64,000 nt of DNA from positions 744,001-808,000 of the forward strand of contig NC_019977.1 in the NCBI RefSeq assembly GCF_000328665.1, given 5' to 3'. The DNA is from Methanomethylovorans hollandica DSM 15978 (GTDB taxonomy: Archaea > Halobacteriota > Methanosarcinia > Methanosarcinales > Methanosarcinaceae). This document shows, piece by piece, positions 4,722 to 29,924 of this stretch; the stretch's first letter is position 1, and each line of letters begins with the position of its first letter. A model generated the notes under the pieces. That model did no database searches. It was given only the letters and a program-made list of their open reading frames with translations, and had not been told where the DNA came from. Both the position numbers and the translations under genes were made by a program.

Positions 4722-5555
4722 TCATTTCTCCACATCATGTACCCAGAAGTCGCCTTCAATTGTAAGTTCTTTTTTCCATACGGGCACTTCTGCTTTTAAC
4801 ATTTCCAGGGCATCAGTAAGGGCTGTGAACAGTTCCTGCCTGTGGGCAGCGGCAACAACTATGTATACGATATCTTCTCCCTGCTTTATGGTGCCTGTAC
4901 GATGGTGCATCCTTATATCCAGAACTCCTTCTCTTTGCATCAGGTCGTTACAAATCTTTTTCATTGCCTCTTCCGCAACCTTTTCATATTTCTCGAAATG
5001 CAATGCCTTTGTTTCCACGCCCTCGGAAAATTGTCTGACGATGCCGGTGAATGTACCGATACCCCCTGCCTGTTTTATTCGTGGGTCCAGCTTTACTTGT
5101 TCGATGAGCAGGCCGAGTGTGGCCCATTCATCCTGCTGCATCACGAGTTCAGCAAGGGTATCAATATCCCAGTCTGCTCTTGCTGGCAGCCTGGCGACTA
5201 TATTTTGCACCTCGTCGATATTGTCAAGATCCCCCAGAACGATCTTTGGCAGGCTGCTTTTCTTAGCGCCTTCAACTATAGCAAAATCCATGCCGCTGTC
5301 TGCCAGGGCATCAAGGGCCTTGCTGAGGGATGGGTTGCGTCTCACAAGTACAAGTTCACCATCTGTTATTGCTGCCACAGCCGCAGCCCCTGCATCAAAG
5401 TGTTTACCTGTATCGGTGTTCTCCGGATTGAACCGATGATGGCACATCTGCTTTACAGTACCAACCTTGCCTTTTCCGGAAAGTTTTTCCACAAGCCGTG
5501 TGACCAGTGTCGTTTTACCTGTTTTCTTATAACCGACCACGCTGATTACTTTCAT
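4722..5555 (-). CDS. MobB-MoaE fusion for molybdopterin cofactor synthesis
   Basis: 277 residues joining two cofactor proteins. Residues 1-140 are MobB-like: MKVISVVGYKKTGKTTLVTR carries a P-loop, and the DFAIVEGAKK stretch is typical of the MobB GTPase that assists guanine-dinucleotide attachment. Residues 150-277 are MoaE, the large subunit of molybdopterin synthase: GTFTGIVRQ, HHRTGTIKQGEDIVYIVV and the catalytic-lysine region VPVWKKELTIEG. Start at 5555 rather than 5618 because the TATA box TTTATATCA lies about 26 nt upstream, giving a leaderless mRNA. The fusion probably serves molybdenum/tungsten enzymes such as formylmethanofuran dehydrogenase. MoaD is not in the window. Confidence 0.9.
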   Translation of the reverse strand: MKVISVVGYKKTGKTTLVTRLVEKLSGKGKVGTVKQMCHHRFNPENTDTGKHFDAGAAAVAAITDGELVLVRRNPSLSKALDALADSGMDFAIVEGAKKSSLPKIVLGDLDNIDEVQNIVARLPARADWDIDTLAELVMQQDEWATLGLLIEQVKLDPRIKQAGGIGTFTGIVRQFSEGVETKALHFEKYEKVAEEAMKKICNDLMQREGVLDIRMHHRTGTIKQGEDIVYIVVAAAHRQELFTALTDALEMLKAEVPVWKKELTIEGDFWVHDVEK

Positions 5556-5708
5556 GAATATTCCTATGCAAATTAATGATATAAATAGAACGTAAGGTTT
5601 GGCAGGCTTTGCAGCCAATGGTCAAAGGCCACAGTTAATTATATTTTGTTAATTTTAACTTATATAAATATAGAATACTTTATATTGTATTAAGTGATTT
5701 TGCAGGCT

Positions 5709-6398
5709 ATGAGCGATTACAGGCTGAGGATGCATGACATTCCTGTTGATGACAGGCCCACTGAGCGTCTGTTGAAATATGGTCCAGAGTCTTTGTCCAC
5801 TGCCGAGCTTCTGGCTGTGGTCCTCAGAACAGGAACGAAGAAGGAAAATGTAGTAAATATGTGCCAGAGGATCTTCTCTGAGTACAACGTAAAGCAGTTG
5901 AGCCAGGCAGAAATATCAAAACTTATGCAGATATATGGTATAGGTCCCACTAAAGCTGCTCAGATCGCTGCAGTGTTCGAGCTTGCACGCAAGCTGGAGA
6001 GGCATGTGGATGGACCTAAGCGCAAGATATGCTCGCCTGCTGATGTTTATTCAATGCTGTATCCGGGTATGAGGGAGCAGAAGCGTGAAAAGCTTGTGGT
6101 GCTTTACCTGGACACAAAGAATCAGGTACTCAAGGAAGAAGTTGTTTCCATCGGCAGCCTGAATTCTAGCATTGTGCATCCCCGGGAAGTCTTTAAATCC
6201 GCGCTCATGGAGTCGTCTGCATCAGTTATCATATCTCATAATCATCCTTCTGGTGACCCGACTCCCAGCAAGGAGGATATAGCAATTACCGAAAAGCTCA
6301 TAGAGGGTGGCAAAATACTGGGTATCGATGTGCTGGACCATGTAATCATAGGTGATGGCAGGTATGTGAGCCTCAAGGACGAGGGTCTTGTCAGTTAA
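5709..6398 (+). CDS. radC: RadC/JAB-family protein
   Basis: 229 residues. The N-terminal half has helix-hairpin-helix elements (LMQIYGIGPTKAAQIAAVFE); the C-terminal half is the JAB/MPN domain with the metal motif H-x-H-x7-S-x2-D in SHNHPSGDPTPSKEDI. Once called a DNA repair protein, RadC has no proven repair role; a metal-dependent peptidase or nuclease activity is possible. The ATG at 5709 is preferred over the GTG at 5694 since the TATA box near 5680 fits a leaderless start there. The family is mainly bacterial, so this is a likely acquired gene, as in other Methanosarcinales. Confidence 0.93.
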   Translation: MSDYRLRMHDIPVDDRPTERLLKYGPESLSTAELLAVVLRTGTKKENVVNMCQRIFSEYNVKQLSQAEISKLMQIYGIGPTKAAQIAAVFELARKLERHVDGPKRKICSPADVYSMLYPGMREQKREKLVVLYLDTKNQVLKEEVVSIGSLNSSIVHPREVFKSALMESSASVIISHNHPSGDPTPSKEDIAITEKLIEGGKILGIDVLDHVIIGDGRYVSLKDEGLVS

Positions 6399-6444
6399 AG
6401 GAAAACAAAACCTTTAAGGTATTTACTATCAATTAGGCAATCAG

Positions 6445-7362
6445 ATGAAAGATATAGAACTTAATGACCCTTATACAACTCCATATAGAGGTATATACGC
6501 AATATGCGATAAACACAATGAATATGTAGAGATCGTTGAGCATTCCAATTGTTATGGCGGTGCTGCATGGTCAAAGTTCCATTATTCGCATTCTCCTCTC
6601 ATCTTAAAGACAAGGTCCATAGGGAATATGGTCAGGTATCTTGCAAAGACAGGCACATGCAAACTTGAACTTAAACCTTCAGTTGCAGCTGCTGGCATAG
6701 AATCTATTATTGTGGATAAAGATGAGGTCCATATCACATATGCAGGTCTGGGTGGTGGGGGTGTAGGCGCCACTAAGTGCCGGGCCTTTGCACAGGGTGT
6801 CCTGCGCTGCGACTACAGTGAATCAGGGGGAGGGCGTGCAGCAAGGGGTAAGGTCATCGTTCCCAGAAGGGAAAGAGTGCTCATAGGGATCGATGATACG
6901 GACTCTAAGGAAACGGGGGCAACATGGACTCTTACTCACAATATCGCAAAAGCGCTGGATTGTCCCGAGGCGGTCTATCTTTCACATTCTCTTGTTCAGC
7001 TTTTTCCCGTATCTGCAAGGACACAGAACTGTGTATCCACAGTGCTTGAGTTCGGGTGTGTGGACGCAATATCCACTAAAGAGCTGCTTGAAAGCATAAA
7101 GGCAGCACTTCTGAAATACAGTGTTTCAGATGAGACCGGCATGGTTGTGCTTCGGAATTTCAATGCACATGAGATCTATCCGTATAGCAGGGAGTGTCGC
7201 AGTGGTGAGCTCAGCAGGGAATATGCAGTGCAGTACGCTATCGATAATGGTGTGGAGATATGGCTGAACGGCAATGGGGTTATAGGTGCGCTGGCTTCTC
7301 TTGCATGGTTCTCAAGGCCGGATGAATCTATCAGGATGGACGCTGAGATAAATGACCCCTGA
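6445..7362 (+). CDS. Methanogenesis marker protein 11
   Basis: 305 residues. Recognised by the combination PYRGIYAICDKHNEYVEI, the Gly-rich YAGLGGGGVGATKCRAFAQG and the nucleotide-site-like segment LIGIDDTDSKETGATWTLTH, which resembles the IDDTD motif of TiaS-type tRNA-modifying enzymes. The family is found essentially only in methanogens; its biochemical role is not settled. The neighbouring IorA-like gene overlaps its end by 11 bp, implying translational coupling. An A/T box near 6413-6426 could drive the pair from a very short leader. Confidence 0.9.
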   Translation: MKDIELNDPYTTPYRGIYAICDKHNEYVEIVEHSNCYGGAAWSKFHYSHSPLILKTRSIGNMVRYLAKTGTCKLELKPSVAAAGIESIIVDKDEVHITYAGLGGGGVGATKCRAFAQGVLRCDYSESGGGRAARGKVIVPRRERVLIGIDDTDSKETGATWTLTHNIAKALDCPEAVYLSHSLVQLFPVSARTQNCVSTVLEFGCVDAISTKELLESIKAALLKYSVSDETGMVVLRNFNAHEIYPYSRECRSGELSREYAVQYAIDNGVEIWLNGNGVIGALASLAWFSRPDESIRMDAEINDP

Positions 7363-8890
7363 CACAGTCTCAAGCATGAAAGAAACAACTGGTCTTGAAG
7401 CTCTTTTGCTTGCTTCCTTTGACAGCAATGTGCTACTTGTGACAGGTGTTGCTGGTTATCCTGCAACTGCTGTTATGGAATTGCTGGTAGAGCGCTCAAG
7501 TGAAGGATACGTTGCCTGCTGGATGACCAATGAAAAAGCAGCCCTTGAAAAAGCTCTGGGAGCATCGGTTACGCAACAGCGTTCCATGGTGGTAGTAAAA
7601 CATGTAGGCATGAACGTGCTCAGTGATCCGCTAATGACCTCAGTGTACCACACCATCGGAGCAGGTGTTGTTATTATTGCCGGAGACGATACCGGAGCAC
7701 GAGCTTCCCAGAACGAGCAGGATTCCCGTTATTATGGGTGCCTTGCAGAGGTCTCTTTATTCGATCCGGCAACACCTCAGGGAGCATATGATGCAGTCAT
7801 GCGTGCGTTTAAGCTATCAGAACAGTCAAAGGTTCCTGTGATCATCAGAGTGACCGACAGATTGCTGGATAGTAAAGGAGCTGTTCTCAGAAGCCGACAA
7901 AATAAATCAACAGCCACTTTCGACAAGGATATCTGGAAACTTACTACAAAAGGCAAACATCAGCGATTCCACAGGATATCCATGCCTTTGCTTGAAATGG
8001 CTGTTCAGACTACTTCTCTGAACAGGCTTCATCCGGGAGACAGTGGGATAGGCATAATCTCATCAGGTTATCTTTCAGTGCTTGTGGGTAAAGCACTCTC
8101 CAAAGCAAAGTGGTCAGGTCATGCGCACCTTGCTCTGCAGATGTTGTCTCCTTTTCCTTTTGCAATGGTACAGCAGTTCATCAGCAAATGCAACACGGTG
8201 CTTGTGGTGGAGGAAACGGAGCCTTACATAGAATCCCACATTGCGGTAACTGGAAAAATACGGGGTAAAATGACAGGCCATCTTCCTTATGGTCAGGTGG
8301 GGATCGAGCATATTGATTATGCACTGGATCACCTGCACGAGGACAGGATAGAGAAGTATACTGAAGTGCAGACCATAAAGAGCAGAGGTTCCAGACCTTT
8401 GTGTCAGGATTGCCCTTTTATGCCTCTTTACAAATGCCTGGCTAATATCGATGTTATGGTTGCCGGGGATATGGGTTGTTCGATCAGGGCAGCTCCGGAA
8501 CCATTACAAGCTGTTGATACGGGATTCGCTCTTGGTTCAGCTATATCTACTGCCTGTGGTTTCAAGGATAAGGGCATTGCAGTGATCGGTGATTTCGCAC
8601 TCGCTCATTCAGGCATTGTTGGCCTGATCAATGCCGTGGGTTCTGAAGATGATGTTGTTGTCGTCATATTGCAGAATCGGATTGCTGCTATGACGGGCGG
8701 ACAGGAGGCTCCTGATCTGATGTCTGTTGTAAAGGCACTGGTATCGGATGTTACTGTCATGGAAATGCCAGTCTTTTCGACAGAAATATCAAGTTATACA
8801 GAAGGTCAACTACAAGAACTGCTTCTCTGCAAACTGGCTCAAAAGGGAATATCTGTGATATATCTCCTGGGTAAATGCACAAAATTATAG
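7352..8890 (+). CDS. IorA-like thiamine-pyrophosphate oxidoreductase subunit
   Basis: 512 residues resembling the alpha subunit of indolepyruvate:ferredoxin oxidoreductase. N-terminal pyrimidine-binding fold (LLVTGVAGYPATAVMELL), C-terminal diphosphate-binding fold with the GD...N motif in VIGDFALAHSGIVGLINAVG and VVVILQNRIAAMTGGQEAPD, preceded by a Cys pair CQDCPFMPLYKC. Unlike standard IorA it ends after this domain and lacks the C-terminal two-cluster ferredoxin module, and no IorB gene is adjacent. Overlap with marker protein 11 suggests a joint role in methanogens. The alternative start at 7376 has no better ribosome site. Actual substrate unknown. Confidence 0.8.
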   Translation: MTPDTVSSMKETTGLEALLLASFDSNVLLVTGVAGYPATAVMELLVERSSEGYVACWMTNEKAALEKALGASVTQQRSMVVVKHVGMNVLSDPLMTSVYHTIGAGVVIIAGDDTGARASQNEQDSRYYGCLAEVSLFDPATPQGAYDAVMRAFKLSEQSKVPVIIRVTDRLLDSKGAVLRSRQNKSTATFDKDIWKLTTKGKHQRFHRISMPLLEMAVQTTSLNRLHPGDSGIGIISSGYLSVLVGKALSKAKWSGHAHLALQMLSPFPFAMVQQFISKCNTVLVVEETEPYIESHIAVTGKIRGKMTGHLPYGQVGIEHIDYALDHLHEDRIEKYTEVQTIKSRGSRPLCQDCPFMPLYKCLANIDVMVAGDMGCSIRAAPEPLQAVDTGFALGSAISTACGFKDKGIAVIGDFALAHSGIVGLINAVGSEDDVVVVILQNRIAAMTGGQEAPDLMSVVKALVSDVTVMEMPVFSTEISSYTEGQLQELLLCKLAQKGISVIYLLGKCTKL

Positions 8891-8910
8891 ATGTGCATTA
8901 TAGAGAAGGT

Positions 8911-8980
8911 GGGTGCCCGGTTGGTAGGAGGAAGGATTTTAGGAACCCCATATTAAGGCTAGGTTATATCGTTGGCACCC
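8911..8980 (-). ncRNA. Candidate small RNA with terminal stem and C-rich loop (copy B)
   Basis: Minus-strand 70 nt segment beginning GGGTGCC (8980-8974) and ending GGCACCC (8917-8911), a perfect 7-bp closing stem that extends by G-U pairs. Inside are a short AACCT/GGGTT stem and a 25-nt unpaired C/U-rich tract containing TCCTTCCTCCTACC, complementary to Shine-Dalgarno sequences. A TATA box (TTATATAT, 9010-9003) is centred about 26 nt upstream of the first stem base, where archaeal initiation is expected. It shares CCTACCAACC with CCTATCCAACC of the candidate at 11968-12041. No known RNA family recognised; expression is inferred. Confidence 0.45.
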
Positions 8981-9002
8981 GTTTCAATATATGTTGGTAT
9001 AA

Positions 9003-9010
9003 ATATATAA
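9003..9010 (-). promoter_or_regulatory. TATA box of candidate small RNA B
   Basis: Minus-strand TTATATAT placed so that the predicted start coincides with the first base of the 8980-8911 stem. The region is generally AT-rich, so on its own the box would be weak evidence; the spacing gives it weight. Confidence 0.4.
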
Positions 9011-9152
9011 ATTTATTGTATATTTATTTCAGGCACTTTACTGTTATATTATTTTGACATTTTCAACACTCATTCTGCTTTAGTCCAGTATGGTTAAATA
9101 AGATGGTCCGGTATTGTGGCGTATAATTCATTTTTACATTTAGGTGACCTTT

Positions 9153-10217
9153 TTGATCGGAATACTTGTCAATGACCGGGTTAAAGCTGGTAAACAGGCT
9201 ATCAATGAGTTGTACAATGTTGGATATTACGGACGTCCAAAAGGTGATACATTAGAACTTACACTCATTGAAGCTGCATATCTGCACTACAAAAAAAAGC
9301 TTGAGATACAGATAGATGACAGATCATTGTCATTTGAGGAGTTCTTTACTGAGGCATCAAAAAGGCAGCAGTATTTTGACCTTAAATATATCGTTTATAA
9401 AGATCTTCGAGAAAGAGGTTTTTATGTCCAGCCTTCTGTGACGGATTTCAGGGTCTATCCCAGAGGAGGGCATCCGGGAAAAACCCCGGCAAAGTTCTTT
9501 GTCCATGTTATCTCGGAGCGTATACCTTTATCTCTCAAGGAGTTACGCATGTCGCTGGAAGCCGCACATAACGTGCATAAAACAATGGTCCTTGCCATTG
9601 TTGATGAGGAAAGCGATATAACTTTCTACGAGATAAGGAAAGTGGAACCAGCGGGAAGCGTGGAATCCATTGAACAGGCAGTACAGGGTAAACGTGGAAG
9701 GTCCACATTCCTTGAAGACCGCGTGGTGGTCTGGAACAGTGATTTTTCCAGTTCATTACACGCCGCAGGTTTCTATGGTCATCCCCTTGATGCGGATCGT
9801 CTGCAGTTATCTCTTGTGGAATCAGGCTATCTGCTTAAAAAAGGTATACTGGAGGTTGCCGATATGTCCGGTACTTCTTCTCTTGGATTCTCTGAATTTG
9901 CTGCAAAGGCCTCGGTCATAGAATCGGAATTCATGCTTAAGTACATGGTATACGAGAACCTCAGGGACAGAGGCCTTGTCCCCAAGACCGGTTTCAAGTT
10001 CGGCAGCCATTTCAGGGTATATCTGGATTTCAGATCGGTGGATAAGCTCCCCCATTCGGAGTACCTGGTCCACTCCATAGCTGAAGAATATGAGTTCATG
10101 CTGCCGGTGATGTCAAGGGCGGTGCGCCTGGCCAATAGTGTGCGCAAAAGAATGATATATGCAGTATATGATAACGTTCACTGTGCCTATATTGACATTG
10201 GCAGGATAAAGATGTGA
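9153..10217 (+). CDS. endA: tRNA-splicing endonuclease EndA, double-length form
   Basis: Cleaves introns from precursor tRNAs. 354 residues made of two related halves, the euryarchaeal duplicated form that works as a homodimer. Repeat traces: YYGRPKGDTLELTLIEAAYL versus FYGHPLDADRLQLSLVESGY, and LKYIVYKDLRERGFYV versus LKYMVYENLRDRGLVP. The second half carries the catalytic pattern: Tyr in FGSHFRVY, His in HSEYLVHSI and Lys in VRKRMIYAVYD. Start: GTG at 9144 gives 357 residues, but AGGTGA at 9142-9147 is a ribosome site overlapping it and fits the TTG at 9153 with 5-nt spacing. An A/T box at 9093-9102 predicts a leader of about 25 nt. Confidence 0.93.
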   Translation: MIGILVNDRVKAGKQAINELYNVGYYGRPKGDTLELTLIEAAYLHYKKKLEIQIDDRSLSFEEFFTEASKRQQYFDLKYIVYKDLRERGFYVQPSVTDFRVYPRGGHPGKTPAKFFVHVISERIPLSLKELRMSLEAAHNVHKTMVLAIVDEESDITFYEIRKVEPAGSVESIEQAVQGKRGRSTFLEDRVVVWNSDFSSSLHAAGFYGHPLDADRLQLSLVESGYLLKKGILEVADMSGTSSLGFSEFAAKASVIESEFMLKYMVYENLRDRGLVPKTGFKFGSHFRVYLDFRSVDKLPHSEYLVHSIAEEYEFMLPVMSRAVRLANSVRKRMIYAVYDNVHCAYIDIGRIKM

Positions 10218-11935: not shown

Positions 11936-11946
11936 GTTTATATAAT
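11936..11946 (+). promoter_or_regulatory. TATA box of candidate small RNA A
   Basis: GTTTATATAAT centred 27 nt upstream of position 11968, the first base of the long stem described next; no protein gene starts at that position. Confidence 0.5.
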
Positions 11947-11967: not shown

Positions 11968-12041
11968 GCGAACGGGTCTCTTCTCAAATGTACCACCAAT
12001 CCTATCCAACCACCCAATACACAACTCCTTAACCCGTTCGC
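11968..12041 (+). ncRNA. Candidate small RNA with 10-bp terminal stem and C-rich loop (copy A)
   Basis: GCGAACGGGT at 11968-11977 pairs perfectly with ACCCGTTCGC at 12032-12041. The 54-nt loop contains almost no G, so it should stay unpaired, and holds ACTCCTTAA, complementary to a Shine-Dalgarno core, plus CCTATCCAACC. Downstream is a T-rich run (TTGCTTCTTATGCTTGTTTA) of the type that ends archaeal transcripts. A well-placed TATA box precedes it. No C/D or H/ACA boxes are present. Design resembles a trans-acting antisense RNA presenting a seed in an open loop, but no target or expression can be shown from sequence. Confidence 0.55.
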
Positions 12042-28649: not shown

Positions 28650-29924
28650 GAGAATCTCAAATTAGGATTTTGATTTAAAAACCTATTCCTTTTTTCGTTG
28701 ATACTGCTATTCTCTTTTTTTTTGGTCAGTGGTAGCTATAAATATAAAAAATTTTGCTTCTTTATGGATAAAAAATCTATCGAGTATAGAGGAGTCCTCT
28801 TCGAGGACTCCATAGAAAACTATCTTTACAGAGAAACTGCCTCTATTTGCCAATTTCTTCATTTTCTCTGTATAGAAGACATTTCACAATACGTTGAACG
28901 TACTGTGTATACCAACAAACGTTGGCATTTTAAATATAACGTTTCCTCAATGATAAAGCTCTTTATTGTAAAGTGCTTCAGGAATCTCTCTTATGAAAAA
29001 ACAGTATCCAGTTTAACAGAAGAAGAAGCTATTATGCTATCGTTCTGTGATAAAAATGGGCAAATAAGACTTCCTTCAGCTGGAACCCTCCATCATTTTG
29101 TAAAATATAGACTTGGAGAAGATGGGGTCAATGAACTAATAATAATGGTAGGCGAAAAGATTCTTAAAAGCTCAAAGTTAAAAGACGCCAAGATAGATTC
29201 AACACCTCTTGAAGCTTCACGATATGACAAATATGCGGATTATAATCCGCATTATAAATGTAAAATGGACAAAGCTCACATTACAATGATTGGAACTTAT
29301 CCGGTATTTATGACATATACTAATGGCCTTAGTTCTGATTCTACGGAACTTATCAAACACATACACGCATTAAAGAAAATGGAAGCTAATATTGAATTTT
29401 ATGCTGCGGATGGAGCTTATGACTCATTCCAAAACAATGCAGATATATGGTATCATCTGAATGCAAAACCAATTATTTCCTACTCTTGTGATGCAGTATT
29501 GCACAAAGAAGGTGAAGTAGAGAGGATTGATCATTGGGTGAACAAAATGTGGAAACTTGGTGGAGAGGTTCATACCAAAATAGAAAATAAGCTGAAGTTT
29601 CTGTATGAAAATGGAAGACAAGAACAAGTTGGGATGTACCTAAGAAATCAAAACATCCTCGATGAATTATTTTGGGAGTTATACAAGAAAAGAGTAGAAT
29701 GCGAAAAAGTACATGGCCACATGAAAGATACGATGAACTTCGATGTCAGAAGAATAAGAGTAGAGAGCAGAGCTCTCTACTCTCTGCTGAATTTCGTTTC
29801 CTATCAACTATTAGTGCTTACTGAATTGCAAAATAAAGTTAAACTCAGGAATTCGTTTGGGAGGCTATTCTAAAAAAGTACATCAAATTAGAATAGAAAT
29901 ATAAGGAGCTAATTTGATGGCCTC
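28650..29924 (+). mobile_element. Insertion sequence, about 1275 bp, IS4/IS5-type
   Basis: Left end GAGAATCTCAAATTAG and inverted right end GAGGCCATCAAATTAG agree at 12 of 16 bases, giving imperfect terminal inverted repeats, with CTAAT duplicated on both sides. One transposase gene fills the interior. Near the right end, CATCAAATTAG (29881-29891) and CTAATTTGATG (29909-29919) form an extra perfect 11-bp inverted repeat that includes the terminal motif. The intact transposase and clean duplication suggest a fairly recent insertion. Family assignment is by general resemblance only. Confidence 0.85.
28764..29873 (+). CDS. DDE transposase of the insertion sequence
   Basis: 369 residues from MDKKSIEYRGVLFEDSIEN. 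Likely DDE residues: Asp near 145 in LKDAKIDSTPLEASRY, Asp near 216 in FYAADGAYDSF, and Glu near 312 in KRVECEKVHGHM, spaced as in the IS4/IS5 superfamily with the basic stretch before the last acid. The TTG-started longer reading to 28698 adds an unlikely hydrophobic N-terminus. The frame is intact, so the element may still be active. Confidence 0.88.
   Translation: MDKKSIEYRGVLFEDSIENYLYRETASICQFLHFLCIEDISQYVERTVYTNKRWHFKYNVSSMIKLFIVKCFRNLSYEKTVSSLTEEEAIMLSFCDKNGQIRLPSAGTLHHFVKYRLGEDGVNELIIMVGEKILKSSKLKDAKIDSTPLEASRYDKYADYNPHYKCKMDKAHITMIGTYPVFMTYTNGLSSDSTELIKHIHALKKMEANIEFYAADGAYDSFQNNADIWYHLNAKPIISYSCDAVLHKEGEVERIDHWVNKMWKLGGEVHTKIENKLKFLYENGRQEQVGMYLRNQNILDELFWELYKKRVECEKVHGHMKDTMNFDVRRIRVESRALYSLLNFVSYQLLVLTELQNKVKLRNSFGRLF

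Follow-up and report, generated by a model that had tools for sequence, protein, structure and literature searches.

The short interval behind an IorA-like gene in Methanomethylovorans hollandica DSM 15978 raises the question of whether it carries a small-RNA gene, on which strand, and what such an RNA would do. The DNA analysed here (the window) is a 64,000-nt stretch of a 2.71-Mb genome assembled in two contigs. A preliminary description of this interval had proposed a minus-strand RNA at 8911–8980 whose 7-bp GGGTGCC/GGCACCC stem closes a 56-nt loop holding the tract TCCTTCCTCCT, and coordinates, strand, stem, loop length and tract all proved exact. Comparison within the genus makes it very probable that Methanomethylovorans has an independent small-RNA gene, hereafter sRNA B, at window 8980–8911 read on the minus strand. 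The element lies 20 nt past the stop codon of the IorA-like gene (8890 to 8911), and the locus is composed as follows.

8911..8980, minus strand: sRNA B, RNA predicted to span both stem arms and the loop; 70 nt in the window genome and 70–78 nt in the relatives
8974..8980, minus strand: 5′ stem arm GGGTGCC, the predicted transcription start; identical in all six genomes of the genus
8911..8917, minus strand: 3′ stem arm GGCACCC; GGCGCCC in relative G003, giving U-G
8918..8973, minus strand: large G-poor loop of sRNA B, mostly unpaired in predictions
8922..8939, minus strand: near-invariant loop core AAATCCTTCCTCCTACCA, which holds the anti-Shine-Dalgarno tract
8955..8964, minus strand: second conserved loop segment ACCTAGCCTT, with one substitution in one genome
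9001..9011, minus strand: TATA box TTTATATATTT, starting at −31 relative to the stem in all six genomes
7352..8890, plus strand: gene for an IorA-related TPP-dependent 2-oxoacid oxidoreductase (below the curated cut-off), the convergent neighbour
9144..10217, plus strand: tRNA-splicing endonuclease gene endA (start about 9144), the divergent neighbour

Seen in one genome, the stem is unremarkable. Inverted repeats of 7 bp with at least six G/C and a loop of 40–75 nt occur three times in the window and zero to four times in ten Markov-shuffled windows, and the folding energy of sRNA B was no different from that of shuffled sequences (z 0.21 on the minus strand and 0.71 on the plus strand). The element rises above chance because it is conserved in all six Methanomethylovorans genomes compared, i.e. 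the window genome (G000) and five relatives, G003 and G005 among them. A DNA search matched the region in all five other genomes (E 1e-42 to 6e-18); loss of the stem and loop motif, the outcome that was to count against the preliminary description, did not occur in any of the six. Pairwise identity across the six genomes reached 1.0 and 0.95 in the two stem arms, 0.92 in the TATA box and 0.82 in the loop; it was 0.66 in the spacer and only 0.55 and 0.56 in the flanks (5′ flank 55%). A profile that peaks at TATA box, stem and loop reads as the footprint of a promoter and an RNA gene. This bears on the suggestion that the sequence is some other inverted repeat, such as a mini-transposon or a protein-binding DNA palindrome, or a chance stem: stems of this kind are about as frequent as expected in a 64-kb window, but this one is a single genome copy that lies at the same place behind the same gene, with loop and promoter conserved in six genomes, and we consider such an origin highly improbable.

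An RNA model (R1) built from the six genus sequences gave six strong matches among 111 family genomes (E ≤2.2e-15; E 1.7e-18 in its own genome) and no convincing sRNA B homologue in the 105 family genomes outside the genus (best E 0.23); three extra-genus matches at E 0.2–0.5 aligned poorly and were discarded by eye. The preliminary description had also proposed searching the genome for further copies, and that search returned no convincing second sRNA B, the next R1 matches in its own genome having E 0.92 and, for seven others, 4.7. These matches are weak. One of those seven, window 29140–29176, lies inside a transposase-like frame (28698–29873, plus strand); this short stretch is present at seven genomic places, all scoring alike with R1. 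A pattern scan of the genome contigs returned 12 stretches, five of them the known genus copies and seven short or weak (13.5–20.1 bits). RNAalifold found no pair of sRNA B changed on both sides among the six sequences, too few for this purpose.

The position of the promoter and the changes within the stem both bear on the strand. Relative to the first stem base, the TATA box TTTATATATTT runs from −31 to −21, a span that takes in the distance of about 26 nt given earlier, and its start lies at −31 in six of six genomes. In archaeal promoters, a TATA box at this distance sets the start of transcription; since the spacing is exactly −31 in all six genomes, we place the start at the first stem G. 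In G003, the one change inside the 7-bp stem turns U-A into U-G on the minus-strand RNA, keeping the pairing, and an eighth pair adjoining the stem reads U-G in four genomes and, in a fifth, U-A on the same strand (in the window genome it is broken on either strand). Read from the plus strand, the U-G states become C-A mismatches. Pairing would therefore survive these changes in a minus-strand RNA but not in a plus-strand one, which favours the minus strand.

These observations also weigh on the reading of the element as a cis element of a plus-strand mRNA, belonging to the 3′ end of the IorA-like gene or to the leader of endA. Its placement 20 nt past the IorA-like stop codon and ahead of endA would suit such a role, as would its retention behind the IorA-like gene in G003. 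Against it stand the minus-strand TATA box at −31 in all six genomes, the plus-strand C-A mismatches and the arrangement in G003, where endA lies on contig C51 while sRNA B and its TATA box still follow the IorA-like gene on C18. TATA box, stem and loop are all kept there despite the separation, which argues that the element does not serve endA. We therefore think a cis element very improbable, and the TATA position, the stem changes and the G003 arrangement together favour the minus strand. We infer that sRNA B is transcribed, with a 3′ end at or beyond the last stem base.

The RNA did not correspond to a described class. Rfam release 15 gave no matches at the gathering threshold in the window, and permissive scans returned nothing plausible at E up to 10 in the interval 5400–9300 or at E up to 1 in the sRNA B locus of a relative (L002) or in relatives of a second element, copy A (see below). 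The C box RUGAUGA and D box CUGA were absent from sRNA B in all six genomes, and ARAGORN reported no tRNA or tmRNA in the window. Among the titles and abstracts listed by literature searches, we recognised none that described a Methanomethylovorans small RNA. A small mRNA encoding a peptide from the ATG at RNA position 30 was also considered. In G000, G001 and G004 a frame of 17–19 codons opens at this ATG. However, the RNA contains no ATG in G003 or G005, G002 has no such closed frame, and indels shift the frame, so that a peptide-coding role is extremely unlikely. We regard sRNA B as an intergenic archaeal small RNA whose loop is probably directed against ribosome-binding sites. The earlier proposal of a minus-strand small-RNA gene that has a promoter of its own and carries an anti-Shine-Dalgarno tract in its loop is borne out at the level of sequence, each part being conserved in six of six genomes.

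What would such a loop do? It had been called C/U-rich, a label that suits its 3′ part only; the loop as a whole comprises 30% C, 27% T, 30% A and 12% G. Its core, AAATCCTTCCTCCTACCA, contains TTCCTCC, the complement of the ribosome-binding motif GGAGGAA, and GGTAGGAGGAAGGATT is present exactly on the opposite strand at the sRNA B locus in all six genomes. GGAGGAA is enriched 2–9 nt before ATG, with 102 places in G000 compared with 25 for the reversed pattern; the corresponding counts were 67 against 25 in G003 and 100 against 39 in G005. UUCCUCC, at the centre of the loop core, therefore complements a motif that behaves as a real ribosome-binding site, and masking of ribosome-binding sites is the likeliest mechanism. 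RNA polymerase would initiate on the first stem G, 31 nt downstream of where the TATA box begins, and a terminal stem of 7–8 bp would join the ends of the RNA and keep open a loop of 56–64 nt that is largely unpaired, although a GGGGTT within it is predicted possibly to pair with part of the anti-Shine-Dalgarno tract. The near-invariant tract AAAUCCUUCCUCCUACCA would then act in trans, pairing with ribosome-binding sites that are rich in purines (GGAGGAA, GUAGGAGGAA) and blocking initiation, so that translation would probably be dampened.

Masking of ribosome-binding sites is the reading that we favour, at somewhat more than even confidence. A real RNA whose loop binds a protein (Lsm/Sm-type or another single-strand binder), or which serves as a decoy or structural RNA without antisense pairing, is a possible but clearly less probable account. 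It would explain why 18 loop nucleotides are near-invariant when no extended matching target accompanies them, and in the copy A family, too, a long stretch of the loop hardly varies between two genera. The tract nevertheless complements the start-site motif GGAGGAA, and related methanogen small RNAs with regions directed against ribosome-binding sites act by pairing (PMC3510493, PMC5867862).

If the loop acts by masking, its mRNA partners might be recognisable, and candidates were sought in the six genomes. The complement of 16 core letters was exact at the sRNA B locus in all six; outside the sRNA B gene, no site matched it with fewer than two mismatches, and with two mismatches it occurred only at scattered other places. 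Allowing G-U pairs gave no more loop-complement matches than controls, which were equal or higher. A 9-nt seed complementary to the core, GGAGGAAGG, was present at 20 places in its own genome, none resembling a start region. It also lies within a repeated sequence (L115, L159, L132) that we presume to be 16S rRNA from its appearance, and we take its occurrence there as coincidence.

Pairing energies were examined for start regions selected by motif. The GGAGGAA places of G000 were taken as 10 loci and 80 stretches, with a few in the window, and 44 distinct frames of at least 50 codons were scored. The loop paired with these 44 regions at a mean of −18.9 kcal/mol compared with −17.1 kcal/mol for shuffled loops (5 of 100 shuffles as good), a comparison that the choice of regions for GGAGGAA tilts towards the loop, and the best single site was equalled by 61 of 100 shuffles. 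In the relatives, 22 of the 67 start places in G003 and 10 of the 100 in G005 were inspected. In G000 and G003 alike, GTAGGAGGAA stands in the mtrE start region and offers the loop a perfect complement of 10 nt. MtrE is one subunit of the methyltransferase that pumps sodium during methanogenesis, which makes its gene attractive as a target. With about 100 GGAGGAA sites per genome, chance would place GTA before one or two of them, and the conservation of the match is to be discounted, as strong start sites are conserved anyway; mtrE is thus a weak candidate, put forward on complementarity. The strongest candidate in G000, xseB (GGTAGGAGGAA, 11 letters), was dropped as G005 does not conserve its site. 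About eight of the G000 places listed (e.g. C2:336380, 337967 and 388433) have one repeated start region in common, GGAGGAA(A/G)CTGGTATG, which is probably a mobile element.

The preliminary description had regarded sRNA B as the second of two units of one design, the first, copy A, lying 3 kb away.

11968..12041, plus strand: copy A RNA, with stem GCGAACGGG/CCCGTTCGC and loop GTACCACCAATCCTATCCAACCACCC; TATA box at 11937–11946

The layout is indeed shared, i.e. a TATA box 31 nt before a terminal stem that closes a G-poor loop, seen for sRNA B in six of six genomes and for copy A, where the first TATA base is at −31 if the 9-bp stem is counted from 11968 (by hand). The sequences are not detectably related. 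R2 found relatives of copy A at E ≤1.4e-9 in 33 of 111 family genomes (six in genus g1 and 27 in g5, counted by hand). R3, a model of the copy A family from 26 aligned members, had a best E ≤1e-4 in 67 of 111 family genomes (hand count), with the reservation that the members used for training are bound to match and the E-values are approximate. The family has a terminal stem that covaries and a C-rich loop of CCA type, and variants of it are carried by genera g5, g8, g12 and g4. In set A7, 19 cells of the copy A stem were changed on both sides compared with 5.2 in shuffled alignments, and the covariation score was 0.315 compared with 0.156; this alignment was fitted to the model structure and left out L204, as well as L205, L208, L212, L213 and L214, the last five judged by eye to be chance matches in coding sequence. 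In the narrow set A6, covariation was no greater than in shuffles. Judged by these alignments, copy A belongs to a covarying RNA family that extends across the Methanosarcinaceae and is absent from Rfam.

Several further arrangements were seen among the copy A matches. Two members lie a few hundred bases apart in genus g8 (L173, 423–490 and 679–747; L174, 465–533 and 191–277). A second type in genus g5 (L195–L200) has the stem GGCCGG/CCGGCC, a loop running from GTACCACCA to CCAACCAACCACC and an AT-rich, TATA-like stretch upstream. R3 also matched one further place in many genomes with uniform scores, 34.9 bits over 69 nt in g8/g12 and 35.9 bits over about 56 nt in g5; these matches are either another conserved paralogue or other conserved sequence.

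Of the suggestion that A and B form one RNA family, the common layout and the membership of copy A in a family are borne out; membership of both in one family is not supported. In the window, R3 found copy A at 86 bits and did not find sRNA B, R1 gave no match on copy A, and alignment of the two loops was at chance relative to shuffles (p 0.14 in their own genome and 0.44 for the genus consensus). The motif CCTA(T)CCAACC that the loops were said to share is present as CCTACCAACC in the window genome only, at the level expected by chance from shuffled alignments; at that position, CCTACCACAACC or something very similar stands in four of the five relatives. The copy A family has in common with sRNA B the first TATA base at −31, a stem at the start, a G-poor loop of 50–60 nt and occurrence in the Methanosarcinaceae. 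It differs in stem and loop sequence, its GUACCACCAA...CCAACCACC loop being C-rich, of CCA type and devoid of CCTCC. By these comparisons, sRNA B is not detectably homologous to copy A. A more speculative proposal, which we regard as unlikely, is that the Methanosarcinaceae arrived at one design twice independently, in A and in B, with the ends clamped at the transcription start and a G-poor loop displayed; B would then mimic the CCUCC end of 16S rRNA and titrate strong Shine-Dalgarno sites in general (about 100 GGAGGAA start regions) instead of regulating a single target.

Masking of ribosome-binding sites has precedents in Methanosarcina mazei. A single-stranded linker of sRNA162 pairs with the ribosome-binding site of MM2441 and masks it (PMC3510493). 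Like sRNA162 (and sRNA171), sRNA B is an intergenic methanogen small RNA; sRNA162 is 191 nt long with three stem-loops (PMC3510493), whereas sRNA B has a predicted length of about 70–78 nt and one terminal stem. The 39-nt linker of sRNA162 (PMC3510493) is its most variable part, in contrast to the near-invariant loop core of sRNA B. Loop 2 of sRNA154 has an anti-ribosome-binding-site sequence that is reported to mask such sites (PMC5867862, PMC11456600), and this RNA is conserved within its own genus (PMC5867862), as is sRNA B; however, it is nitrogen-regulated, has two stem-loops and contains a small ORF (PMC11456600). sRNA41 is reported to mask ribosome-binding sites in polycistronic mRNAs (PMC5867862), and masking is the action proposed for sRNA B. 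Both sRNA154 and sRNA41 were compared by their published descriptions. By analogy with these three M. mazei RNAs, masking is the best mechanism available for sRNA B.

Archaeal trans-acting small RNAs of known mechanism are few, and the methanogen examples that we found described come from one species. sRNA B would offer a compact natural case, in which a promoter and a stem accompany a short tract that is near-invariant. As its genus has a named type strain, control of translation by base pairing would be testable there by point mutations. The nearby copy A adds a covarying RNA family of the Methanosarcinaceae that is missing from Rfam.
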